Source of the DNA: Pseudodesulfovibrio nedwellii
GTDB lineage: Bacteria > Desulfobacterota > Desulfovibrionia > Desulfovibrionales > Desulfovibrionaceae
Length of the DNA stretch: 64,000 bases
Direction of reading: 5' to 3'
NCBI RefSeq assembly: GCF_027923765.1
Contig: NZ_AP026709.1
Span: 987,501-1,051,500, forward strand
In this document: one piece after another, positions 29,378 to 34,512 of the stretch
How positions within the stretch are numbered: position 1 is the stretch's first letter
How the letters are laid out: each line of letters begins with the position of its first letter
Position numbers and translations under genes: made by a program
The notes under the pieces: generated by a model
Database searches by the model: none
Told to the model about the DNA's origin: nothing
What the model saw: the letters and a program-made list of their open reading frames with translations, nothing else

Positions 29378-29560
29378 ATGATCGATACCATACTTGTCGT
29401 TTGCATTGTTTCTATTGCTGGGATATTCGTTGCCCGCAAGCTCTTCAAGCAATTCACGTCAAAACAGCCTTCTTGCAACTGTACAGGTTGCGGACACTCC
29501 GGTTCATGCTCAGGCATTCAGGACAGTCCGAACAATGACAGTTGCCCAGGTGCGCAATAA
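29378..29560 (+). CDS. FeoB-associated Cys-rich membrane protein
   Basis: Sixty residues: a single N-terminal membrane helix (ILVVCIVSIAGIFVARKLF) followed by a short Cys-rich tail, CNCTGCGHSGSC, then a further Cys. This is the form of the small Cys-rich proteins found beside feoA/feoB in anaerobes; they may help assemble the transporter or sense iron. GAGGGG precedes the ATG. It is the first gene of the feo operon here, 58 bases before feoA. The long overlapping frame that runs into feoA is not used. Confidence 0.75.
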   Translation: MIDTILVVCIVSIAGIFVARKLFKQFTSKQPSCNCTGCGHSGSCSGIQDSPNNDSCPGAQ

Positions 29561-29618
29561 TTTTTTTTGCGCCATCGTTGATATTAATTATCAACCAGAA
29601 TATTTCAAGGAATACATA

Positions 29619-29861
29619 ATGTCTCAAGATTTTTGTTTAAGAAAAGCCAAGGTCAACCAGAAGCTCAAGATTAAAACTGTTGCTGCCGAAGGAGAACTCG
29701 GTAGAAGAATCCGTGATATGGGCCTTATCTCTGGCACAGAAGTTCATGTTATCGGCAAGGCCCCACTCAAAGACCCTGTCGCCCTGCGCCTCAAAGATTT
29801 CACGCTCACCTTGCGCAACAGCGAAGCAGATCACATCACCGTCACCCTGTTGGAGGATTAA
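29619..29861 (+). CDS. feoA: FeoA ferrous iron transport accessory protein
   Basis: Small SH3-like cytoplasmic protein (80 residues) that assists FeoB. The family pattern is clear: LGRRIRDMGLISGTEVHVIGKAPLKDPVALRLKDFTLTLRNSEAD. The ATG at 29619 has AAGGA seven bases upstream and gives the usual length; an in-frame extension upstream has no FeoA character. feoB begins 3 bases after the stop. Confidence 0.93.
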   Translation: MSQDFCLRKAKVNQKLKIKTVAAEGELGRRIRDMGLISGTEVHVIGKAPLKDPVALRLKDFTLTLRNSEADHITVTLLED

Positions 29862-29864
29862 GCG

Positions 29865-32000
29865 ATGGCAGAATATACCATTGGTATCGCAGGCAATCCC
29901 AACTGCGGCAAAACCACTATGTTCAACTCCTTGACCGGAGCACGACAGCATGTTGCCAACTGGCCCGGCGTGACCGTCGAAAAAAAAGTCGGCCACATCC
30001 AAACCAACGGCGACTCCATTGTCATGGTAGACTTGCCAGGCACCTATTCGCTGACAGCATACACGCAAGAAGAACTGGTTGCCCGTAACTTCCTCGTGGA
30101 TGAACGACCGGAAGTCGTCATCGACATCATGAATGCCGATGCTCTTGAACGGAACCTATATCTTGCTGTCCAAATCATGGAATTGGGTGTTCCGCTTGTA
30201 CTCGGCCTCAACATGATGGATGAAGTTCGCAGCAGCGGTAAACAGATCGACAGTGAACGACTTTCCAAGCTCTCGGGTTGCACAGTGGTGGAAACCGTAG
30301 CCAGAAACGATCTAGGTACACAGGCCCTCCTGAAAGCGACTCTGAAGCTTGCCAAAGAACAAAATGACACATGGAAACCGTTAAATATTTCCTACGGGCC
30401 AGATCTTGACCCTGTTTTAGATGATATGGTCAAACTCATCGAAGCTGAGAACTTCCTTACCGAAAAAGTCCCAGCCCGTTGGACCGGCATCAAATATCTT
30501 GAACGCGACGAAGACGTGGTCATCAAGGGTCGCATGACCAACACAGCCTTGTCCGACAAACTCGAAGCTATGGCTCGCGAAGTGGCCGATCACACAGAAA
30601 AGACCCTCAAAGCCCGACCGGATGCACTCATCGCCGACCATCGCTATGGATTCATCGCAGGCATGATCAAAGACGTTGTATCTTACCCCGTCCTTGACGA
30701 GGATCGCATCAGCCGTTCTGACCAAATGGACAAAGTGCTCACCCACCGCTTCCTCGGTCCGGCTATCATGCTCGCCATCGTCTATCTCATATATAAAATA
30801 ACGTTCACGGTGGGTGAAATCCCCATGGGCTGGCTAGAAATGCTCTTCGGATGGATGGGAGATACCGCGTACAACGCTTTACCTGACGGCCATCTTCGTT
30901 CGCTGGTTGTGTCCGGCATCATCGACGGCGTCGGTGGCGTCCTCGGATTCGTTCCGCTCATCATGTTCATGTTCCTGATGATCTCAGCCTTGGAAGACTC
31001 AGGATATATCGCTCGCATGGCCTACATGCTCGACCGTATCTTCAAAATATTCGGTCTGCACGGCACGTCAGTACTGCCCTTCATCGTTTCCGGCGGCATC
31101 GCTGGTGGTTGCGCCGTCCCCGGTGTCATGGCCGCCCGTACGCTGAGAAGCCCCAAGGAAAAACTGGCAACCCTGTTCGTAGCTCCTTATATGACATGCG
31201 GCGCCAAGGTCCCGGTCTTCCTTATGCTAGCCGCCGCCTTCTTTCCGCAAAACGCTGCCACGGTCATGCTCATGATCACACTGTGCGCTTGGGCAATGGC
31301 CCTCATCGTAGCCCGTGTTCTTCGCTCCACTGTCATCAGAGGAGCTTCTACTCCGTTCGTCATGGAACTGCCCCCCTATCGCATGCCCACAATGCGTGGA
31401 GTACTTATCCACACCTGGGAACGCACCTGGGAATACGCTAAGAAAGCGGGTACCGTCATTCTCGGCATCTCCATTTTGCTCTGGGCCATGATGACCTTCC
31501 CACAGATGCCGGAAGAACGCCTCGCCCAATATGAATCCATGCGCTCAGCCGTTCAAACTGAAAAAGCCATTACACAGATTGACAACGCTGAATCCGAAGA
31601 AGCCATCCGTCATACTTATGCAGGCCGCATCGGTACAGCTCTGGAGCCAATATCCAAGCTGGCCGGATTCAACTGGCGTGTTAACATTGCCCTGACCGGC
31701 GGTTTTGCAGCCAAAGAAGTCATTGTATCGACTCTGGGAACAGCCTATTCTCTGGGCGAAGTAGATGCAGAAGAAGCTCAGCCTCTGTCTGACAGACTGG
31801 TGGCAGATCCTCTGTTCACCAAGGCCTCGGCACTCGCTCTCATTATCTTCACCATGCTTTATGCCCCCTGCTTTGTAACCGTTGTTACCATGGCACGGGA
31901 ATCAAGCTGGAAATGGGCGGCCTTCAGCGTCGTCGGATCGACAACTCTTGCATTCGGTATGGCGGTCATCGTCTATCAAATTGCCAAAACATTCGTCTAA
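29865..32000 (+). CDS. feoB: FeoB ferrous iron transporter
   Basis: Inner-membrane Fe(II) uptake protein of 711 residues. The N-terminal G domain has G1 GNPNCGKTT (residues 8-16), G3 DLPGTYSL and G4 NMMDE; a guanine-dissociation-inhibitor-like helical stretch follows (~170-270); the rest is the membrane part with two gate domains (IDGVGGVLGFVPLIMFMFLMISALEDSGYIARMAYMLD-type signature, split here, and GGFAAKEVIVSTLGTAY). GGAGG precedes the ATG. A terminator follows at 32024. Regulation by Fur is plausible from the upstream box. Confidence 0.95.
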   Translation: MAEYTIGIAGNPNCGKTTMFNSLTGARQHVANWPGVTVEKKVGHIQTNGDSIVMVDLPGTYSLTAYTQEELVARNFLVDERPEVVIDIMNADALERNLYLAVQIMELGVPLVLGLNMMDEVRSSGKQIDSERLSKLSGCTVVETVARNDLGTQALLKATLKLAKEQNDTWKPLNISYGPDLDPVLDDMVKLIEAENFLTEKVPARWTGIKYLERDEDVVIKGRMTNTALSDKLEAMAREVADHTEKTLKARPDALIADHRYGFIAGMIKDVVSYPVLDEDRISRSDQMDKVLTHRFLGPAIMLAIVYLIYKITFTVGEIPMGWLEMLFGWMGDTAYNALPDGHLRSLVVSGIIDGVGGVLGFVPLIMFMFLMISALEDSGYIARMAYMLDRIFKIFGLHGTSVLPFIVSGGIAGGCAVPGVMAARTLRSPKEKLATLFVAPYMTCGAKVPVFLMLAAAFFPQNAATVMLMITLCAWAMALIVARVLRSTVIRGASTPFVMELPPYRMPTMRGVLIHTWERTWEYAKKAGTVILGISILLWAMMTFPQMPEERLAQYESMRSAVQTEKAITQIDNAESEEAIRHTYAGRIGTALEPISKLAGFNWRVNIALTGGFAAKEVIVSTLGTAYSLGEVDAEEAQPLSDRLVADPLFTKASALALIIFTMLYAPCFVTVVTMARESSWKWAAFSVVGSTTLAFGMAVIVYQIAKTFV

Positions 32001-32023
32001 AAAAACGAATCAGTAAAACAATC

Positions 32024-32055
32024 AAGGGAGTCCTTCGGGACTCCCTTTTCTTTTA
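32024..32055 (+). terminator. Rho-independent terminator after feoB
   Basis: Stem GGGAGTCC / GGACTCCC around a stable TTCG tetraloop (32026-32045), with A/T extension and TTTTCTTTTA downstream. Confidence 0.9.
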
Positions 32056-32095
32056 ATAAAAGATACTCTATGGTCGCTCCGATTAAAGGAGTATC

Positions 32096-33073
32096 ATGTC
32101 TAAAATTTTCACCATCGCCCAAGAACTCATCCGCGACGCTATCTCCGCTTGTTACGAGTTATTCAAGGTTATGATTCCGGTCATTATCGGAGTTAAACTG
32201 TTACAAGAATTCGACCTGATCCAATATGTCGCCCTCCCTCTCAAACCTATCATGGGCCTCCTTGGTCTTCCTGCCGAACTCGGCCTGGCTTGGGCAACAG
32301 CCATGGTCAACTCCATGTATGCAGGCCTCATTGTCTTCCTCTCACTGACTCGAGACATGACGCTCAACACTGAACAGGTCACTATTTTTGCCGTCTTACT
32401 CCTTATAGGACACGGCTTTCTCGTCGAAGGAGCCATTGCTCAACGATCCGGCGCAAAATTCGTTTTTCAAATTTTATCCCGACTATTCGGCGCGTTCGCA
32501 CTCGGTCTGATACTTCACTGGACCTACTCTTCCAGCGGAACGCTCCAAGAGCCAGCTGTCATCCTCTTTCAAAGTTCCAGTCCAGTTGATCCCACCCTGC
32601 TTCAATGGATTTGGGATGAAACAAAAAACCTACTTTCGATCTTCGGCATTGTCCTCGGCCTCATGATCATGATGCGTATCCTGTCGGCCATCCGCGCTGT
32701 CGACTTGATGAACGCCCTGTTACGCCCAATCCTCAAACTTATTGGTATCGGCCCGAAGGCATCGACCATCACCATCATAGGATTCACTCTTGGCCTGGCA
32801 TATGGCGGCGGACTGATTATCAACGAAGCCCAATCCGGACGCATTGACCGTAAGGATGTATTCTATTCCCTAACACTCATGGGATTGTGCCACTCCATGA
32901 TCGAGGATACCCTGCTCATGATGCTCATTGGTGGTCATCTGAGTGGCATATTCTGGGGGCGCATGCTCTTCGGCCTCGTCGCTATGACCATTTTGGTCCA
33001 AATAACACGCCGACTGCCGCAATCTTTCTGCAACAAGTATCTCTGGGGAAACCCCAGACAAACCGTTCAATAA
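32096..33073 (+). CDS. Gate-domain (nucleoside recognition family) membrane protein
   Basis: A 325-residue polytopic membrane protein with about eight helices and two gate-like segments (residues ~25-75 and ~185-270; e.g. GFTLGLAYGGGLIINEAQSGR). The family shares the gate fold with FeoB and spore maturation proteins SpmA/B. Its position directly after feoB, but behind a terminator and with its own AAAGGAG site, suggests a possible role in metal or nucleoside movement; the substrate is unknown. ridA follows after 11 bases. Confidence 0.75.
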   Translation: MSKIFTIAQELIRDAISACYELFKVMIPVIIGVKLLQEFDLIQYVALPLKPIMGLLGLPAELGLAWATAMVNSMYAGLIVFLSLTRDMTLNTEQVTIFAVLLLIGHGFLVEGAIAQRSGAKFVFQILSRLFGAFALGLILHWTYSSSGTLQEPAVILFQSSSPVDPTLLQWIWDETKNLLSIFGIVLGLMIMMRILSAIRAVDLMNALLRPILKLIGIGPKASTITIIGFTLGLAYGGGLIINEAQSGRIDRKDVFYSLTLMGLCHSMIEDTLLMMLIGGHLSGIFWGRMLFGLVAMTILVQITRRLPQSFCNKYLWGNPRQTVQ

Positions 33074-33084
33074 AGGAGAAACAC

Positions 33085-33468
33085 ATGTCCGACATTAAAC
33101 TGATTCACACAGACACAGCCCCGGCCGCCGTCGGCCCTTACTCTCAAGCATCAACGGCCAACGGCATGTTGTTCGTATCCGGCCAGCTCGGTATCATCCC
33201 CGGTGAAGGTAAACTGGCGGAAGGATTCGAGACGCAAACAAAACAGGCTCTCGAAAATATGAAAGCCATTTTGGAAGAAGCTGGTTCTTCTTTAGAAAAA
33301 GTATTGGCCGTCGATGTATTCGTCATGGATATGGGTAAATTTGCTGACCTGAACGCCATCTACTCCGAATACTTCACCGACCACAAGCCCGCCCGTGCTG
33401 CCATTCAGGTTGCAGGCCTGCCGCTGGGTGGTCTGGTTGAACTCAAATGCATCGCTCTCGTAGACTAG
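33085..33468 (+). CDS. ridA: RidA family enamine/imine deaminase
   Basis: A 127-residue cytosolic trimer-forming protein that hydrolyses reactive enamines/imines from PLP enzymes. Conserved features: AAVGPYSQA near the N-terminus, GMLFVSGQLG, and the substrate-binding Arg in KPARAAIQVAGLPLGGLVELKCIAL. AAGGAG precedes the ATG. It is probably cotranscribed with the preceding gate-domain gene. Confidence 0.95.
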   Translation: MSDIKLIHTDTAPAAVGPYSQASTANGMLFVSGQLGIIPGEGKLAEGFETQTKQALENMKAILEEAGSSLEKVLAVDVFVMDMGKFADLNAIYSEYFTDHKPARAAIQVAGLPLGGLVELKCIALVD

Positions 33469-33506
33469 ACGACCGAGAACCGACTGCCCCGTTACAGAAA
33501 CTCTAC

Positions 33507-33535
33507 TTGACAGGGCGTAAACGAAACAGATAACG
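33507..33535 (+). promoter_or_regulatory. Candidate promoter of the attenuated aldolase transcript
   Basis: A consensus -35 TTGACA (33507-33512) is followed, after 17 bases, by ATAACG, a partial -10. It lies immediately before the leader-peptide frame, at the place expected for an attenuator promoter. Confidence 0.5.
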
Positions 33536-33542
33536 AAACCAT

Positions 33543-33620
33543 ATGCACAACATCACCACTCGTTTCTTTTTCTTTTTTAGCTTTTATTTCAGGAACGCCT
33601 GCGGTCTTGGTGTGCAATAG
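33543..33620 (+). CDS. Phe-rich leader peptide of an aromatic amino acid attenuator
   Basis: A 25-codon frame starting MHNITTR and containing FFFFFSFYF: seven Phe and one Tyr within nine codons, then RNACGLGVQ and TAG. A Phe run like this just before a terminator is the hallmark of phenylalanine attenuation (compare PheL and PheM of enteric bacteria). No strong ribosome-binding site is seen (GAAACC upstream), the weakest point. Ribosome stalling at the Phe codons when charged tRNA-Phe is scarce would leave the downstream antiterminator arm (33599-33608) free. The regulated gene is the aldolase at 33721. Confidence 0.8.
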   Translation: MHNITTRFFFFFSFYFRNACGLGVQ

Positions 33621-33653
33621 TCTTTAAATCGAAAAACACTCAAGAGGCCGCGG
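33599..33653 (+). promoter_or_regulatory. Antiterminator helix of the Phe attenuator
   Basis: Bases 33599-33608 (CTGCGGTCTT, in the last leader codons) can pair with 33644-33653 (GAGGCCGCGG) over ten continuous positions including three G-U pairs. This uses the 5' arm of the terminator at 33643-33670, so the two structures exclude each other, as in classical attenuators. Confidence 0.65.
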
Positions 33654-33679
33654 CGAAATCCGCGGCCTCTTTTTTTTTA
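33643..33679 (+). terminator. Attenuator terminator before the aldolase gene
   Basis: Perfect 11-bp stem AGAGGCCGCGG / CCGCGGCCTCT, loop CGAAAT, then nine T. It lies 23 bases after the leader-peptide stop and 41 bases before the aldolase start. It could also end the ridA transcript. Confidence 0.93.
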
Positions 33680-33720
33680 AAGAAGTCGCACCGTCGGTCA
33701 AAAAGAACAAGGAGAGTCCA

Positions 33721-34512
33721 ATGCATTTAGGAAAAGCCATTCGTATGGAACGCATCATGAACCGCAACAATGGACGCACTATCGTAGTGCCTTTGGACCA
33801 CGGTGTAACTGTCGGCCCTATTTACGGACTGATTGACCTGCGTGAAACCGTCAATCAGGTGGCCGAAGGCGGTGCCAACGCCATGCTCATGCACAAGGGG
33901 ATACCCAGATGCTCCCACCGTGCAGGAGGCAAAGACATCGGCCTGATCATCCACCTGTCCGCGTCAACATCTCTGTCTCCGCACCCCAATGCCAAAACTC
34001 TGGTGGGTACCGTTTCAGACGCCCTCAAACTCGGCGCAGATGCCATATCTGTTCACGTCAATCTGGGAGATGAAACCGAATCGCACATGCTGTCCGATCT
34101 CGGCGCTCTCTGCTCTGAAGCCAACGAGTGGGGAATGCCAGTCCTCGCCATGATGTACGCACGAGGCCATAAAATTGAAAACGAATATGACCCGCAAGTG
34201 GTGGCCCATTGCGCCAGAGTCGGCGTGGAGTTGGGCGCGGATATCGTCAAGGTGAACTACACTGGCGATCCAGAATCCTTCAAGGCCGTGGTGGAAGGAT
34301 GCTGTGTTCCCGTGGTCATAGCAGGAGGTCCGAAGCTGGAAAGTGACCGGGATCTCGTCCAAATGGTCTATGATTCCATCCAAGCCGGAGGCTCAGGTCT
34401 GTCCGTGGGTAGAAATGTCTTCCAGCACAAGAATCCGGCCAAAATTGTGGCCGCACTCAACAAGGTCGTTCATGAAAATTGGGATGTGGATGCAGCCATG
34501 AGGCTGCTGTAG
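33721..34512 (+). CDS. Class I aldolase, probable 2-amino-3,7-dideoxy-D-threo-hept-6-ulosonate (ADTH) synthase
   Basis: A 263-residue DeoC/FbaB-type TIM barrel. Schiff-base Lys is K177 in [10 protein letters not shown]; the acid/base region is VPLDHG (D26, H27) and MMYARG carries the conserved Tyr. In methanogens and Desulfovibrio the closest enzymes condense 6-deoxy-5-ketofructose 1-phosphate with aspartate semialdehyde, entering the alternative shikimate route; others are fructose-bisphosphate aldolases. The Phe-rich leader and attenuator just upstream favour the aromatic assignment. AAGGAG precedes the ATG. The usual partner, 3-dehydroquinate synthase II, is not next to it. Confidence 0.8.

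Follow-up and report, generated by a model that had tools for sequence, protein, structure and literature searches.

The window, the whole stretch of 64,000 nucleotides of Pseudodesulfovibrio nedwellii DNA that was analyzed, contains a short Phe-rich reading frame in front of an aldolase gene, both on the forward strand. The gene (33721-34512, ATG at 33721) encodes a class I DhnA-type aldolase of 263 aa, a predicted ADTH synthase according to its matches to TIGR01949 and MJ0400, and has the ribosome-binding site AAGGAG at 33709-33714. The leader frame (33543-33620) begins with the ATG at 33543 and encodes MHNITTRFFFFFSFYFRNACGLGVQ in 25 codons, followed by the stop codon TAG at 33618-33620. 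Its Phe codons are located at 33564-33578, 33582-33584, and 33588-33590, and the run FFFFFSFYF lies where the initial annotation had described it. The TTGACA noticed upstream of the leader was confirmed at 33507-33512 and serves as the -35 box of a predicted leader promoter. A candidate -10 box, GATAAC (33529-33534), is an imperfect match that follows a 16-nt spacer and lies 8 nt from the leader ATG. Region 2 (CTGCGGTCTT, 33599-33608), within the leader frame, is the partner of 33644-33653 in a putative antiterminator, based on duplex score and covariation. An intrinsic terminator (33642-33679) is made up of region 3 (33642-33653), a loop, region 4 (33660-33671), and a T run. Folding also predicts a 1:2 helix (33544-33616) between the start and the end of the leader, with the Phe run in its loop. 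Among the 1558 short frames of the window (distinct stops, both strands), the leader is the only one with at least seven F/Y/W in 10 codons, and it alone of the five F-rich frames listed has a terminator 3' of it. The gene upstream of the leader is ridA, which has the same direction and ends at 33468. FeoA- and FeoB-like frames, then a nucleoside-recognition (Gate) protein, are found at 29394-33073, upstream of ridA and the aldolase gene.

The aldolase was present in at least 93 of 98 relative genomes, among the matches listed. From the relatives, 151 aldolase genes with upstream DNA were collected and used to build a FastTree tree; of its 148 inner branches, 65 are weak. The window gene falls in a clade that has a support of 95 and comprises 35 rows from four genera, and every one of these rows has a Phe-dominated leader. 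L115 has both the leader and the terminator, and the one Trp codon of L113 is placed after the Phe run. Comparison of orthologs for the Phe-rich leader and the alternative helix, which had been proposed as a check, was passed: the leader was found in 35/35 rows and the 2:3 helix in 34/34 scored (L091 has no TTGAC and was left out of the scoring). The clade of the operon copy described below has 33 rows and a support of 97. Scanning found no leader in the clade of the third paralogue (14 rows, including L003) or in a clade of seven around L196. For L164, just 116 nt of upstream DNA were available, and L118b, L127b, L132b, and L134b are the second genes of tandem pairs. L128, which lies outside the window clade, has a Phe-rich leader too, a possible second origin of the Phe preference. 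Eleven loci (L004-L014), read by eye, each combine TTGACA with an aromatic-rich leader and a G+C-rich hairpin that has a T run. They were kept out of the 151-gene set, and many of them are the same sequences as its rows. One of them, L004, is from a Pseudodesulfovibrio MAG and encodes an aldolase 99% identical to that of the window.

Two ADTH-synthase paralogues besides the window copy are found in the P. nedwellii genome. They are 67% and 64% identical to it, and both score above the TIGR01949 cut-off (396.4 and 363.2 bits). The operon copy (L228, G000:C1:3470000-3480000) is at the head of an aro-phe-tyr-trp operon with genes for ADTH synthase, DHQ synthase II, chorismate mutase-prephenate dehydratase, and prephenate dehydrogenase, and it has a Phe/Tyr/Trp leader. 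Frames read as aroA, trpE, and trpG were also seen at L228. For the third paralogue (L003, G000:C1:2369024-2369803), no leader or terminator was found by the scan. This trio of a Phe leader, a mixed leader, and none recurs in the other three genera of the window clade: G046 (L114, L190, and L212, respectively), G053 (L116, L207, and L201), and G057 (L131, L188, and L208).

The codon content of the leaders separates the two copies. The 35 window-clade leaders total F 237, Y 20, and W 1, versus F 121, Y 113, and W 54 for the 33 operon-clade leaders. The Phe codons of the window clade are TTT (147) and TTC (90). One Phe codon dominates each core position, occurring in 25-30 of 32 rows at positions one to five, and, therefore, synonymous change is modest evidence. 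The initial annotation had raised the possibility that tRNA-Tyr is sensed as well. An attenuator that responds to Phe and Tyr, or to general aromatic supply, and not to Phe alone could account for the one Tyr codon of the window leader and for the mixed leaders in sister clades. We consider this unlikely, since Tyr occurs anywhere in 15/35 and Trp in 1/35 of the window-clade leaders, whereas Phe, Tyr, and Trp codons are all present in 33/33 operon-clade leaders. The Tyr codon of the window leader lacks conservation within its clade. Sensing of tRNA-Tyr by the window copy is not supported, but it is likely for the operon copy. Tyr-rich aldolase leaders with little or no Trp were seen at L198 (YYYSY), L189 (FAYGYY), and L218 (FFYCYSY), which are possibly Tyr-tuned copies. 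Tandem ADTH-synthase pairs were observed at L118, L127, L132, and L134, in four genera of the family, with the second gene lacking its own leader.

The identification of the aldolase as an ADTH synthase in aromatic synthesis, proposed initially, was supported by profile, structure, and gene set. The protein scores 400.2 bits against TIGR01949, the ADTH-synthase equivalog (cut-off 299.45). Among proteins of solved structure, MJ0400 gives the best match (E 7e-100); its Asp33, Tyr153, and Lys184, taken to be catalytic, are aligned with D, Y, and K of the aldolase. DHQ synthase II is represented in the genome by one PF01959 match. Neither AroB (PF01761) nor a type II DAHP synthase (PF01474) was found in the genome, with no match to either model, and the sole PF00793 match is the KDO8P synthase. 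The presence of DHQ synthase II, with AroB and DAHP synthase not found, suggests that the alternative (ADTH/DHQ synthase II) shikimate route is likely in this genome, in which case the window aldolase is predicted to be one of three candidate first-step isozymes of aromatic synthesis. It is improbable that the enzyme is instead a fructose-bisphosphate aldolase or another DhnA-type aldolase. These enzymes have the superfamily in common and models of class I FBP aldolases do match the protein, but under their cut-offs, while the ADTH-synthase equivalog cut-off is exceeded and the best solved match is MJ0400. One paralogue adjoins DHQ synthase II, and the Phe leader itself also speaks against another function.

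The position of the predicted promoter was compared among 115 leaders by measuring the distance from the last TTGAC upstream to the first in-frame ATG. This distance is 36-37 nt in 84/115 leaders and 35-40 nt in 105/115. For such spacing, consensus sigma-70 geometry predicts a transcript whose 5' end is at the leader ATG or no more than about 2 nt away from it. Shine-Dalgarno matches to AAGGAGGT are 3 nt or shorter in 97/115 leaders; at aldolase starts, they are at least 5 nt long in 113/133. A loose aromatic criterion is passed by 133/151 rows, a count that includes frames in leader-less clades taken for chance. The poor ribosome-binding site of the leader frame, regarded initially as the weak point, was borne out; it fits a leaderless transcript, and the predicted leaderless state of the mRNA is the likely cause. 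We predict that the leader is leaderless in most of the order. L219, L222, and L225 are exceptions, with TTGAC spacings of 54-65 nt and Shine-Dalgarno matches of 4-5 nt. The -10 boxes of the leaders are weak, and a sigma-70 promoter scan of 33200-34000 listed no site.

A covariance model spanning region 2 to the terminator (R1) was used to find further copies of the switch. R1 has three strong sites in the P. nedwellii genome: the operon copy, 647297-647393, and the window copy. At E <= 1e-7, a match was found in 36/36 genomes of the genus and three matches in 30/36, and a fourth match appeared in seven genomes at E <= 1e-6. The gene behind 647297-647393 (L242:2088-3695, G000:C1) encodes an SSS symporter (PF00474, SSF domain) with a Phe-rich leader attenuator. 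A small accessory protein (NF045580) adjoins it, and the symporter scores under the cut-offs of PutP and PanF. A Phe leader precedes a sodium:solute symporter in 31/36 genomes of the genus; no symporter site was found in G008, G014, G021, G029, and G030, of which G021 and G030 are nearly complete. When one further site per genome was taken (31 plus that of P. nedwellii), 31/32 were an SSS symporter behind a Phe-dominated leader, and the remaining one, L272, has an operon-type leader. The last 26 residues of the symporter leaders total F 264, Y 13, and W 1, with MNTYPNRFSFFFFFSFRFFRSACGLGVYV as an example. The symporter leader is Phe-only in G046 and Phe/Tyr in G067. Since a Phe leader precedes both the window ADTH synthase and the symporter, the two likely form a small tRNA-Phe regulon. 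Judged by its leader alone, the symporter is a possible phenylalanine importer. Weak R1 matches in the P. nedwellii genome (L235 and L237-L240) were rejected as ordinary-looking terminators with no aromatic leader. One R1 match in G096 (L277) lies before a frame read as DctP-like, and the scan found no aromatic leader there.

The strong sites examined are all in cis, before ADTH-synthase or symporter genes. This argues against a main role in trans for the leader peptide or for the RNA of about 137 nt that termination would leave, a role like that of rnTrpL/peTrpL of Sinorhizobium meliloti. A role in trans would be consistent with the end of the leader peptide, RNACGLGV, being well conserved in the window clade, and in S. 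meliloti, a leader mRNA with its ATG at the 5' end is described as acting in trans (PMC7298713). However, the conservation may be explained by the leader end coinciding with region 2, and we regard a mainly trans-acting leader as very improbable.

The strong terminator reported 3' of the leader frame has a stem of 12 pairs (33642-33671), nine of them GC, followed by the T run. The ten-pair helix between 33599-33608 and the 5' arm of the terminator was also recovered, at -16.2 kcal/mol, and 2/100 shuffles were as good. Folding of 33536-33680, which had been suggested as a check, gave -42.3 kcal/mol (z -4.84). Terminators were found in 113/115 frames having TTGAC and ATG. The exceptions are L130, which has a leader and no terminator by the criterion used, and L220, whose frame we take for no leader. 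A 2:3 duplex was present in 113/113 scored leaders, with a median of -20.3 kcal/mol. No more than 5/100 shuffles were as good in 103/113 leaders, and the remaining 10/113 fell outside the 5% tail. Region 2 starts 5-8 nt past the last aromatic core codon in 96/113 leaders and ends upstream of the leader stop codon in all 113 but L131, so a ribosome at the stop codon would cover it.

Covariation was examined in an alignment of 46 diverse sequences drawn from the 113 leaders (A1). Region 2 was cut with the help of the predicted duplex and, thus, these counts lean towards pairing: the 2:3 helix is 86.7% paired, compared to 37.5-43.8% when slid by 1-3 columns. It has 27 two-sided cells versus 10.2 in shuffles, with 0/500 shuffles as high, and six of its pairs have changes on both sides. 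At the 2:3 pair of columns 11-88, UA occurs 26 times, CG 13, UG 4, AU 1, and other combinations 2, and the terminator partner of this region-3 base is unpaired in 31/46 sequences. The same pair in 111 leaders (L146 and L187 were skipped) is T-A 47, C-G 37, T-G 25, A-T 1, and C-A 1. Since the terminator partner is mostly unpaired, region 3 follows region 2 at this position and not region 4, which supports selection acting on the antiterminator itself, apart from the terminator. A hairpin that is merely the terminator of ridA, with a Phe frame read by chance from a U-rich stretch, can be set aside with little hesitation: ridA does end upstream in the same direction and a T-rich stretch yields Phe codons in one frame, but TTGACA separates ridA from the leader, the frame is present in 35/35 rows, Tyr and Trp codons are retained in the operon clade, L009, L011, and L012 keep the leader and terminator behind the end of a nucleoside-recognition-protein-like frame and not ridA, and the 2:3 helix covaries apart from the terminator.

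The 1:2 helix that closes the Phe run in the window is an additional element predicted by folding only. Long-range 1:2 pairs were found in 34/34 scored leaders of the window clade, with a median z of -2.7 measured against plain letter shuffles, and the helix is weaker than z -2 in 9/34. Ribosome stalls were scored with an assumed footprint of 12 nt. Before region 4 has been transcribed, the antiterminator scored -23.9 kcal/mol for an A site at Phe codons 8-14, -16.8 kcal/mol at codon 16, and -1.4 kcal/mol at the stop codon. A ribosome located at the final Phe codon would overlap part of region 2, which counts against the model. In the full RNA, the terminator was favored at equilibrium in all cases, stalling in the Phe run included; the switch would therefore have to work by kinetic trapping.

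These elements support the attenuator layout of the pheA/pheS type recognized initially, with a Phe leader, a terminator, and a covarying 2:3 helix. We consider it highly likely that the stretch is a ribosome-mediated, Phe-specific transcription attenuator that would control one of three ADTH-synthase paralogues. Sequence and comparison show the Phe leader and the terminator, as well as 2:3 and 3:4 pairings that exclude each other; the 1:2 helix is predicted by folding. RNA polymerase would start at or beside the leader AUG, and a ribosome would presumably load on the leaderless 5' end. When Phe-tRNA is ample, the ribosome would reach the stop codon at 33618 and cover region 2, and the 3:4 terminator would halt transcription. 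When Phe-tRNA is scarce, the ribosome would stall in the Phe run and 2:3 would pair before region 4 exists, allowing read-through into the gene for the aldolase. If the leader were left untranslated, region 2 would be sequestered in the 1:2 helix and transcripts would terminate by default. Through its Phe/Tyr/Trp leader, the operon paralogue would read all three tRNAs, and the sodium symporter behind its Phe leader would share the small tRNA-Phe regulon with the window gene.

Rfam RF01859 (Phe_leader) represents the enteric pheL-pheA and pheM-pheST attenuators. No Rfam match was found in the window at the gathering threshold; RF01859 gives a full-length weak match to the leader (32.1 bits, E 8e-4), below its gathering score of 55. 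In both systems, the gene is preceded by a Phe-rich leader, a terminator, and helices that can form alternatively. Unlike in the enteric system, the gene here encodes an enzyme predicted to catalyze the first step of the alternative shikimate route, the leader is predicted to be leaderless, and paralogous leaders differ in the tRNAs read. In E. coli, the first step is split among the aromatic end products by the DAHP synthase isozymes AroG, AroF, and AroH, through feedback inhibition and repressors. The ADTH synthases resemble this split, which is predicted here to be made by leader codons.

The uORFC-13-1 motif of Acholeplasma aroF is similar in having a U-run Phe uORF and a terminator before a first-step enzyme (PMC8632094). 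It differs in that the enzyme is a DAHP synthase, the group is another one, and the uORF has a ribosome-binding site; its description includes no isozyme split. The S. meliloti trpL attenuator is also similar, since the 5' end of its RNA is the leader ATG (PMC7298713), but it is a Trp leader before trpE(G), and the start in P. nedwellii is a predicted one. A putative attenuator is listed before the D. vulgaris genes aroA'>aroB'>aroQ-pheA>aroF>tyrA>[trp operon] in Table 7 of PMC1173090 (2005), an entry that stems from Merino's website. It is probably the homologue of the attenuator of the operon copy, provided that aroA' is the ADTH-synthase gene. The entry itself mentions no leader peptide, control codons, single-gene Phe copy, or symporter. 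The initial annotation knew of no description of this leader in the group; as far as these sources go, this stands for the Phe-only copy and does not hold for the attenuator of the operon copy. In our literature search, in which subscription journals were thinly covered, none of the matches listed dealt with the Phe-only copy, the split of codons between copies, or the leader of the symporter, and a search that included Desulfovibrio yielded no paper on a Phe leader in the group among the matches listed.

A broader reading appears fairly probable to us: attenuators across the order, mostly leaderless, would split the first aromatic step by their leader codons, with tuning through codon swaps that leave the switch unchanged. 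Phe-only leaders would control one ADTH synthase and the symporter, a Phe importer, and the operon copy would respond to all three tRNAs. If true, the regulatory logic of aromatic synthesis could be read from sequence in an order of sulfate reducers, isozymes would be specialized through leader codons, and leaderless translation would be central to an attenuator in a group for which we found no report of it. The leader would also point to what an SSS symporter transports. Within one genome, the paired leaders would be a natural experiment, with a similar RNA switch and other control codons.

Among more distant loci (L015-L083, n=69), 18 meet a loose criterion. Ten of those 18 were read: eight have a leader and hairpins, and L081 and L083 have none. 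These eight loci (L019, L021, L025, L030, L036, L041, L044, and L048), which are outside the order, have leaders with Phe and Tyr codons followed by hairpins, and six of them have Trp codons too. The eight loci are titled Desulfobacterales-type or Syntrophaceae. TTGAC lies within 60 nt in two of them (33 nt in L041 and 55 nt in L021), which suggests that the leaderless form may belong to the Desulfovibrionales. In L030, L036, L041, L044, and L048, two hairpins whose arms contain GCCGTGG lie between the leaders FFSAFYYFYYWY and the aldolase gene.
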